Part shown: positions 2,707-3,525 of the stretch, piece by piece
Layout of the letters: each line of letters begins with the position of its first letter
Numbering within the stretch: the stretch's first letter is position 1
Source of the DNA: Flavobacteriales bacterium
Lineage (GTDB): Bacteria; Bacteroidota; Bacteroidia; Flavobacteriales_D; Crocinitomicaceae
Assembly: GCA_947449575.1 (NCBI GenBank)
Contig: CANFRV010000031.1
Coordinates: 1 to 41,222, forward strand
Direction of reading: 5' to 3'
Length of the DNA stretch: 41,222 nucleotides
Program-made: the position numbers and the translations under genes
The notes under the pieces: generated by a model
Databases searched by the model: none
Told to the model about the DNA's origin: nothing
What the model saw: only the letters and a program-made list of their open reading frames with translations

Positions 2707-2760
2707 TAACCTGAGATTGTGTGAATTTTATATCGAGTAATCGATTTTGGGTTATTTTTT
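2704..2760. repeat. intergenic inverted repeat, copy 1 of the AACCTGAG family
   Basis: AATAACC (2705-2711) pairs with GGTTATT (2750-2756), followed by a T-run, so it may terminate transcription from the OmpA gene. The left arm TAATAACCTGAGATT with TGTG (2704-2723) recurs with one mismatch at 37074-37093. Both copies sit between convergent genes. An inner ATCGAGTAATCGAT segment may also pair. Confidence 0.45.
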
Positions 2761-3525
2761 AGAGATAACGGTATCAAAGACTTTTAAAGTGCTCCCAATT
2801 AATACGCCATTTGCCCAGTAGAAGCCAGTATCTCCTTCAGGAAGAATGTCGAATGTAAAGGGCTCTTCGTAAGAAATATCTGTAATTTTCACAATAGAGA
2901 CACCTTCCAATTTCTCTCCAACATTAAATTCTCCTAAATTTTTGTTAGCAATAGAAGAAGGGTGACCAGGAGAAACCTGCAATTTTCTACCATCTTTTAA
3001 CTCTATCAAAACCATGGAATGTGCCCCTACAATTTCTACTTTATTTACCATTTTAATGCGCATTTCCACTTTTTCTCCTTTACTATTGATCGAAAGCACC
3101 TTGTCATTTTCCTTTAATTGATCAATTGGAACATTTCCTACTGATGTTAAAATTTGAGTTGAACCTGGCAAACATCTGCATCTGTTTGGAGTACCTCTAA
3201 ATTCTCTATCGGAATAAGTATAGAGTAATGTGCCGTCTTCCAAATCTCTAATGACTGGTTGTTCTTTCGCGACAGGTATGCACACATCCTCAATGGGCCA
3301 CGTATAAATGTTTGTTTTTATATAAATTTTCTTTTTATAACCCACTTTCGCCACTTTAACACCTTTTTTTTCAGCCCAACATCTGTTTAGATAACACTGT
3401 TTATCCTTGCCAATAACAGGTGCATAGATTGAAAAACAATCTTCAGAGACTTTCTTTTTGCCGCACGCTATTGCAAAATTTGGTGAGATTGTAATGATAG
3501 AAAATAATAGTATAAGGAGTTTCAT
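2752..3525 (-). CDS. Secreted Hint-domain protein with degenerate Kazal-like N-terminal region
   Basis: A 257-residue exported protein; the signal peptide ends near FAIAC (Cys21, possibly a weak lipobox). Residues about 30-62 resemble a Kazal protease-inhibitor repeat (YAPVxGxDxxxYxNxCxAxxxGV), but the Cys of the usual PVCG is Ile and a Cys sits just before the Tyr. From Cys118 a Hint (hedgehog/intein) domain begins with CLPGSTQILTSVG. It continues with the strand LKDGRKLQVSPGHP (His188) and ends with DILPEGDTGFYWANG and VLIGST. Hint domains catalyse an N-S acyl shift that cleaves or splices the chain. The usual terminal His-Asn pair is replaced by Ala-Asn-Gly, so cleavage seems likelier than splicing. 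Natural substrate and partner are unknown. Confidence 0.8.
   Translation of the reverse strand: MKLLILLFSIITISPNFAIACGKKKVSEDCFSIYAPVIGKDKQCYLNRCWAEKKGVKVAKVGYKKKIYIKTNIYTWPIEDVCIPVAKEQPVIRDLEDGTLLYTYSDREFRGTPNRCRCLPGSTQILTSVGNVPIDQLKENDKVLSINSKGEKVEMRIKMVNKVEIVGAHSMVLIELKDGRKLQVSPGHPSSIANKNLGEFNVGEKLEGVSIVKITDISYEEPFTFDILPEGDTGFYWANGVLIGSTLKVFDTVISKK

Follow-up and report, generated by a model that had tools for sequence, protein, structure and literature searches.

The window, that is, the whole 41,222-nucleotide stretch of Flavobacteriales DNA analysed here (contig CANFRV010000031.1), carries on its minus strand, at positions 2752-3525, an open reading frame of 257 amino acids, a single gene in which a Kazal-derived region and a Hint domain are joined. 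The gene is real, coherent, and rare, and the pairing of its two parts is unusual. On the evidence of its sequence, it is fairly probable that the product is an exported Kazal-derived precursor, which would be cleaved by the Hint domain at Cys118 to release residues 22-117. A sequence-only reading had proposed a Kazal-like and Hint protein at 2752-3525; the coordinates and the protein hold, and the coding strand proves to be the minus strand. A plus-strand reading of 2752-3525 was rejected, its frame 1 being full of stops.

Organization of the protein

Numbered from Met1, the landmarks are YAPV at residues 34-37, CLPGSTQI at 118-125, SPGH at 185-188, and YWANGVLIGST at 236-246, and the cysteines stand at 21, 30, 44, 49, 82, 116, and 118. 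Residues 1-21 (MKLLILLFSIITISPNFAIAC; positions 3463-3525, minus strand, as are all the following) look by inspection like a signal peptide, with a hydrophobic stretch and an Ala-x-Ala end, and from this segment we infer export of the precursor by Sec. A lipoprotein anchor was considered and thought improbable for the family, since nothing corresponds to Cys21 in the alignment with the more distant of the two homologues (L003). Residues 22-62 (3340-3462) form the Kazal-derived region, with C30, C44, C49, and the pattern YAPVxGxDxxxYxNxCxAxxxGV, and are recognized by a Kazal HMM, shuffles, hhalign, and a PDB profile search. A conserved segment, residues 63-117 (3175-3339), follows; it is conserved in both homologues, carries C82 and C116, and ends with Arg117, after which cleavage is expected. 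The Hint domain (residues 118-246; 2788-3174), with the putative nucleophile Cys118, block B Ser185-Pro-Gly-His188, and the end NGVLIGST, is assigned from the NCBIfam model TIGR01445, the fold match, and the invariant residues. A short C-terminal tail (residues 247-257; 2755-2787) is identical at three of 11 positions to L003 and at 11 of 11 to the nearer homologue (L002). A scan for promoters and terminators gave six promoter-like sites, against 3.9 expected, and one terminator-like site.

The gene is under purifying selection and hence probably functional. Between the window and L002, the whole gene has a dN of 0.044 and a dS of 0.33 (dN/dS approx. 0.13). Among the three main regions, the Hint domain is the most constrained (dN 0.013, dS 0.217, dN/dS 0.06); the Kazal-like part has a dN/dS of 0.18, and the 11-residue tail shows no amino-acid change. 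The same comparison for QueG gives a dN of 0.009 and a dS of 0.167.

The Hint domain

The proposal that a Hint domain begins at Cys118 was borne out by a curated model, by the predicted fold, and by conservation. TIGR01445, the intein N-terminal model, is passed with 30.6 bits (cut-off 24.5). The Pfam models stay below their cut-offs (Hint 19.7/29.7, Hint_2 15.4/28.4, Intein_splicing 14.5/35.8, and Vint 13.8/27). In an alignment of nine rows (the three full-length members and six other Hint domains), only Cys118, Thr123, and His188 are invariant (9/9); thus, Cys118 is kept in both homologues as well as in all wider Hint rows. The block B motif [S/T]xxH is kept, as S185-P-G-H188 in the window protein and as TAEH in L003.

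AlphaFold2 was run on the whole protein and gave two models with mean pLDDT values of 44.0 and 55.3, the second of which used a nine-sequence alignment. In this second model, pLDDT is approx. 91 for model residues 121-140 and lower further on; by block of ten, the Hint part ranges from 36 to 91. Foldseek, run with the Hint-containing model, returned 48 matches at E <= 0.001, all of them inteins, bacterial intein-like (BIL) domains, or hedgehog. With VIA-align, the same holds for 50 of the 50 matches listed (Z 10.3-13.8), including 6y75_B (Z 13.8, rmsd 2.9, 127 residues), 2lwy (Z 12.2, rmsd 2.8, 124 residues), and the hedgehog structure 1at0 (Z 11.5, rmsd 2.9, 122 residues). Among the structural matches listed, BIL2 of the Tetrahymena BUBL1 locus ranks first, and a C. 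thermocellum BIL domain and hedgehog also appear, with many inteins between them. The structure prediction suggested for this part therefore matched a Hint fold of the BIL, intein, and hedgehog kind at Z 11.5-13.8. The domain thus shows the curated N-terminal model, the Cys1 nucleophile with [T/S]xxH, and, in the model, the horseshoe fold of the Hint superfamily.

The C-terminal His-Asn pair of splicing inteins is missing. The loss of this pair had also been read from the sequence, and in all three members Gly-Ser (IGST) stands in its place. Among BILs, domains of the B type do without the splicing motif at the C-terminal end and are able to cut themselves at the N-terminal one (PMC7765530, in the part drawn on here). 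By the definition given in that part of PMC7765530, the window Hint domain is alike in having the N-terminal and block B motifs and in missing His-Asn. By the missing motif and the fold, it most resembles the B-type BIL domains.

Predicted processing and its alternatives

It is reasonable to assume the following course of events. The precursor would be exported by Sec, with a mature N-terminal part (approximately residues 22-117) made up of the Kazal-derived, cysteine-containing domain and the conserved 55-residue segment. A peptide-to-thioester shift would occur at Arg117-Cys118, helped by the [S/T]xxH pair, and the thioester would then be hydrolysed or attacked by a small nucleophile, so that the N-terminal product would be freed and a Hint remnant left. 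With Gly-Ser in the place of His-Asn, the domain is expected to cut at its N-terminal side and not to splice, and no Asn-driven C-terminal cleavage would take place. By this route, we infer, a domain for binding or for interaction with proteases would be set free outside the cytoplasm. Of this course, the domain relationships, the conserved catalytic residues, the Hint fold, and the loss of the splicing residues are established computationally, and export, cleavage, and release are predicted. Several points count against this explanation: residue -1 is Arg, not Gly as in hedgehog, where Gly precedes the Hint nucleophile; block B has Ser in place of Thr in two of the three members; all Pfam Hint and Kazal models stay below their cut-offs; the N-terminal part of the predicted structure is of low confidence; and only three members are known, two of which are 90-91% identical.

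The segment between the two named parts (residues 63-117), which the sequence-only reading had passed over, bears on what would be released. Compared with L003, it is identical at 44 of 55 positions (80%), the Hint domain at 73 of 129 (57%), and residues 22-62 at 27 of 42 aligned columns; compared with L002, the corresponding figures are 50/55 (91%), 125/129 (97%), and 35/42. As this segment is conserved in both homologues, the conserved product is probably the whole of residues 22-117. A profile search of the PDB with residues 63-117, up to E 5, returned a single row (Filamin-A, E 0.91) and no solved relative.

Cys116, likewise passed over in the sequence-only reading, lies at -2 to Cys118; it is invariant in the three members, and none of the six other aligned Hint domains has a cysteine there. 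Cleavage might thus be restrained by a Cys116-Cys118 disulfide until reduction, which would add a redox switch to the preferred explanation. Such a disulfide-caught intein is known, namely 3nzm ('DNAE intein with N-extein in redox trap'), which is among the structural matches. However, C116 may pair with any of C30, C44, C49, and C82, and the confidence of the model is low there, so the switch is best regarded as a doubtful, though conceivable, refinement.

It is also possible, though we consider it unlikely, that the Hint domain is decayed or purely structural and that the protein acts uncut. The Thr of block B is Ser in two of the three members, and conservation between the window protein and L003 is lower in the Hint domain than in the segment preceding it (73/129 vs. 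44/55). Nonetheless, neither Cys118 nor His188 varies across the three members and the six other Hint domains, and it is the Hint domain that shows the strongest constraint of the main regions in the comparison with L002, as given above. The release of residues 22-117 by N-terminal cleavage remains the preferred explanation.

A third reading concerns the fate of the thioester, which might pass the Kazal-derived product to an amine, a lipid, or a surface nucleophile, resulting in covalent attachment as in hedgehog with cholesterol. The top structural matches listed include BUBL1 BIL2, the C. thermocellum BIL domain, and hedgehog, and the residues that form the thioester are kept and those for C-terminal cleavage lost, which is in line with such a transfer. 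The resemblance to the hedgehog layout that had been claimed from the sequence is real in part. As in hedgehog/Hog proteins, an N-terminal domain, here predicted to be secreted, precedes a C-terminal Hint domain, and the fold matches 1at0. Hedgehog, however, has a sterol-recognition region, and the window protein ends 11 residues after its Hint domain, leaving no acceptor-binding region; moreover, Asp46 of hedgehog, the general base, corresponds in the 1at0 alignment to Lys162, a residue invariant in the three members. The Pfam scan gave no sign of a hedgehog N-terminal domain in the window protein. As there is no region after the Hint domain and Lys162 occupies the Asp46 position, sterol transfer appears unlikely. 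There is also no conserved adjacent partner gene, the neighbours differing between the genomes of the window and L002 (G000 and G029) and that of L003 (G079). Taken as a whole, attachment seems distinctly unlikely. A combination of these ideas, in which a hedgehog-like secretion device would consist of an inert exported precursor with a Cys116-Cys118 gate, whose reduction would lead to release or to surface attachment via the Arg117 thioester, must be considered quite improbable.

The Kazal-derived region

The Kazal spacing noticed in the sequence is more than a chance pattern. A Kazal HMM was built from the results of a PF07648 search of the same taxonomic family, which gave 11 places in nine of 100 genomes; it comprises 11 domains from nine of the 11 loci, L035 and L036 being left out. 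The same family model (PF07648), at E <= 0.001, had no match in the window genome. With the HMM, the window protein scores 21.1 bits and its homologues 19.9 and 21.5 bits, and 15,000 composition shuffles (5,000 for each of the three members) do not exceed 11.2. Of 1,016 background ORFs, none appears among the best 15 rows other than six copies of the gene. For the N-terminal part alone, the three members score 22.6, 21.6, and 23.6; among 15,000 shuffles with fixed cysteines, the highest score is 12.6. It should be noted that the three members are mutually related, and their Kazal scores do not amount to three independent tests. A single hhalign comparison of the N-terminal part with Kazal gave an E of 1.5e-5 and a probability of 79.5. 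In a PDB profile search with the three N-terminal parts, silk protease inhibitor 2 is the best row (E 3e-4) and the single one at E <= 0.001; the other ten rows have E values of 0.079-0.84. Ten of these 11 rows up to E 1 are Kazal-type inhibitors, three being named so and seven of the 11 being ones that we take to be such.

On sequence homology, residues 30-62 are thus related to Kazal domains. The cysteine frame is another matter, as six cysteines in the Kazal arrangement are not found. In comparison with related Kazal domains, C30 (before the loop) and C49 (in NxC) are kept, and presumably represent the surviving disulfide pair; missing are the first cysteine and the ones in PVC and GC, C44 is an addition to the Kazal frame, and C82 can be aligned with the last Kazal cysteine only if a gap of 18 columns is allowed. 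Relative to both homologues, the window protein lacks one residue in the loop after C30. In the Pfam scan, Kazal_1 (PF00050) scores 12.5 bits with the full protein and 15.4 with the N-terminal part and misses its cut-off of 21. With most of the disulfide frame gone, the region is, as judged by these comparisons, best termed Kazal-derived and not a Kazal domain. Since that frame is mostly gone and the Pfam cut-off is missed, protease inhibition is a candidate function at most.

The small Kazal proteins of the same family (L026-L036) offer the closest comparison. They share with the window protein the core YxPVxGxDxxxYxNxCxAxxxG and the cysteine before the loop, but their 11 aligned domains carry at least six cysteines. 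In some of their translations nothing follows the Kazal domain and in others a longer tail does; a Hint domain is seen in none. By inspection, four of them (L028:682-1671 and L031:1237-1953, both on the minus strand, L035, and L036) continue C-terminally into a longer stretch that looks like a type IX secretion tail.

Structure prediction adds little to this relationship. In the N-terminal model, blocks of ten between residues 21 and 120 have pLDDT values of 27-63; a strand-strand-helix arrangement at residues 33-53 (counted from Met1) would be in keeping with a Kazal domain, at a confidence too low to count. In the fold searches, with 50 rows listed each, all rows are Hint structures and no Kazal row appears, the Hint domain having filled the list. 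Because confidence in the N-terminal model is low, the case for a Kazal fold is one of sequence. Toxin_30 (Ptu) scores 13.5 bits with the full window protein and 16.3 with its N-terminal part (cut-off 24.5), slightly above Kazal_1, although, at E <= 10, Kazal_1 is matched by all three members and Kazal_2 and Toxin_30 by one each. That the Kazal match is a coincidence and residues 22-117 an unrelated cysteine-containing domain, as might be argued from the missed Kazal_1 cut-off, the slightly better Toxin_30 score, the step in the PDB search from its one row at E <= 0.001 to the next at 0.079, and the unconfident fold model, appears very improbable given that none of the 30,000 shuffles of both kinds reaches the observed scores, that ten of 11 PDB rows are Kazal-type (by name or by our assignment), and that the hhalign E value and the Kazal_1 matches in three of three members, against one for Toxin_30, point the same way.

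Distribution and gene neighbourhood

The gene is found in three of 12 genomes of one genus, and the three members are the window protein, L002 (near), and L003 (distant). Both homologues retain the order of Kazal-derived region, residues 63-117, and Hint domain, so that the domain order suggested for comparison is conserved, within a family of three members. The same three, and none elsewhere, are found in the family sample (3/200 genomes) and, at E <= 1e-6, in the order sample (3/399), and in the phylum sample the window's own genome is the only one of 395 once two matches to TonB-like proteins are set aside; these family, order, and phylum samples overlap and represent parts of the groups, not whole groups. 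The two matches set aside (L006 and L007; E 2.5e-4 and 8.3e-4 for the N-terminal region) were treated as chance by inspection: they lie in frames of 854 and 839 amino acids resembling TonB receptors, and no Kazal core is seen by eye. One further locus (L004), from a scan of a contig collection, was not counted as a separate member.

In a phage collection, 12 Vibrio phage records match with 31.8-33% identity over residues approx. 109-203, mainly the Hint part, and eight of the 12 are annotated as terminase. A plasmid collection gave no match, and none of 20 pattern matches in viral contigs is a relative.

In the window, an OmpA-like gene (DUF5723 and thrombospondin type 3 repeats) points towards the gene, and queG lies on the other side, followed by a gene that we take to be ruvB. 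In both the window and the genome of L002, the gene follows queG and stands between it and the OmpA-like gene; in that of L003, it is located elsewhere, beside a PNGase_F-II_N protein and a gene that, by inspection, resembles one for a cell-wall peptidase. A conserved gene partner was rejected, as the neighbours differ between the window/L002 and L003. A queG match is present in ten of the 12 genus genomes, and the gene occurs in the queG flank in two of these ten (the window genome and G029), the flank covering approx. 1.5 kb, or less at three contig ends. The spot downstream of queG (L018-L025) holds different genes across genus members and looks like a site of gene turnover.

Relation to other terminal Hint proteins

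A secreted domain followed by a C-terminal Hint domain is a layout already described in bacteria. According to the part of Bürglin 2008 drawn on here (PMC2362128), bacterial proteins whose C-terminus is formed by a Hint-like domain occur in Stigmatella, Myxococcus, Reinekea, Photorhabdus, Serratia, and Yersinia (additional files 16-17); for some of them signal peptides are predicted, and two cysteines are conserved upstream. The group had been detected earlier by Dassa and Pietrokovski. Compared by description, these proteins resemble the window protein in layout, i.e., in the signal peptide predicted for some, the cysteine-containing upstream region, and the C-terminal Hint-like domain. The layout proposed from the sequence is thus borne out, and a protease-inhibitor-like character and a released product stay at the level of prediction. 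The same part of PMC7765530 as above names no Kazal-derived partner for B-type BIL domains, and no natural fusion of Kazal with Hint or an intein was found in the literature searched, which consisted of open-licence papers. As far as this literature shows, a Kazal-derived partner for a Hint domain is not in print.

Within Bacteroidota, a search of the 395 genomes of the phylum sample with a Hint profile gave 19 places, distributed over 18 genomes. By inspection, most of them lie inside larger intein-like or repeat-type proteins or have His-Asn (e.g., L039 and L050). Seven of the 19 are Hint domains without His-Asn at or near the protein end: that of the window (L038), L037 (the same as L013), L040, L044, L051, L052, and L054. 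Five of these seven have a signal-like start; L044 has none, and in L040 there is an in-frame stop a short way upstream, so the start of the protein is outside the view. L013 (1231-2538, minus strand) and L014 (730-2016, plus strand) combine NADase_transloc (PF25302) with a C-terminal Hint domain without His-Asn. L040 (339-980, plus strand) has a terminal Hint domain without His-Asn; the residues before it look, by eye, like the last part of L014's NADase_transloc domain, and a transposase-like gene lies downstream. L051 (1336-2400, minus strand), L052 (970-1968, plus strand), and L054 (1333-2325, minus strand) encode three related proteins with a signal-like start by inspection; their Hint domains end in NGVMV[LM]QK, and they make up another, probably secreted, family of Hint proteins within the phylum. 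Like the window protein, L013, L014, L051, L052, and L054 have a signal-like start, a distinct N-terminal domain, and, at or near the C-terminus, a Hint domain without His-Asn. However, their N-terminal domains are different, and L013 and L014 have no cysteine at -2.

The Kazal part may point to contacts with extracellular proteases, although the lost disulfides make this uncertain. The best-known case of a secreted signal being freed by a Hint domain is hedgehog. Together with the other terminal Hint domains of Bacteroidota that are without His-Asn, the gene described here makes up a small set of candidates.
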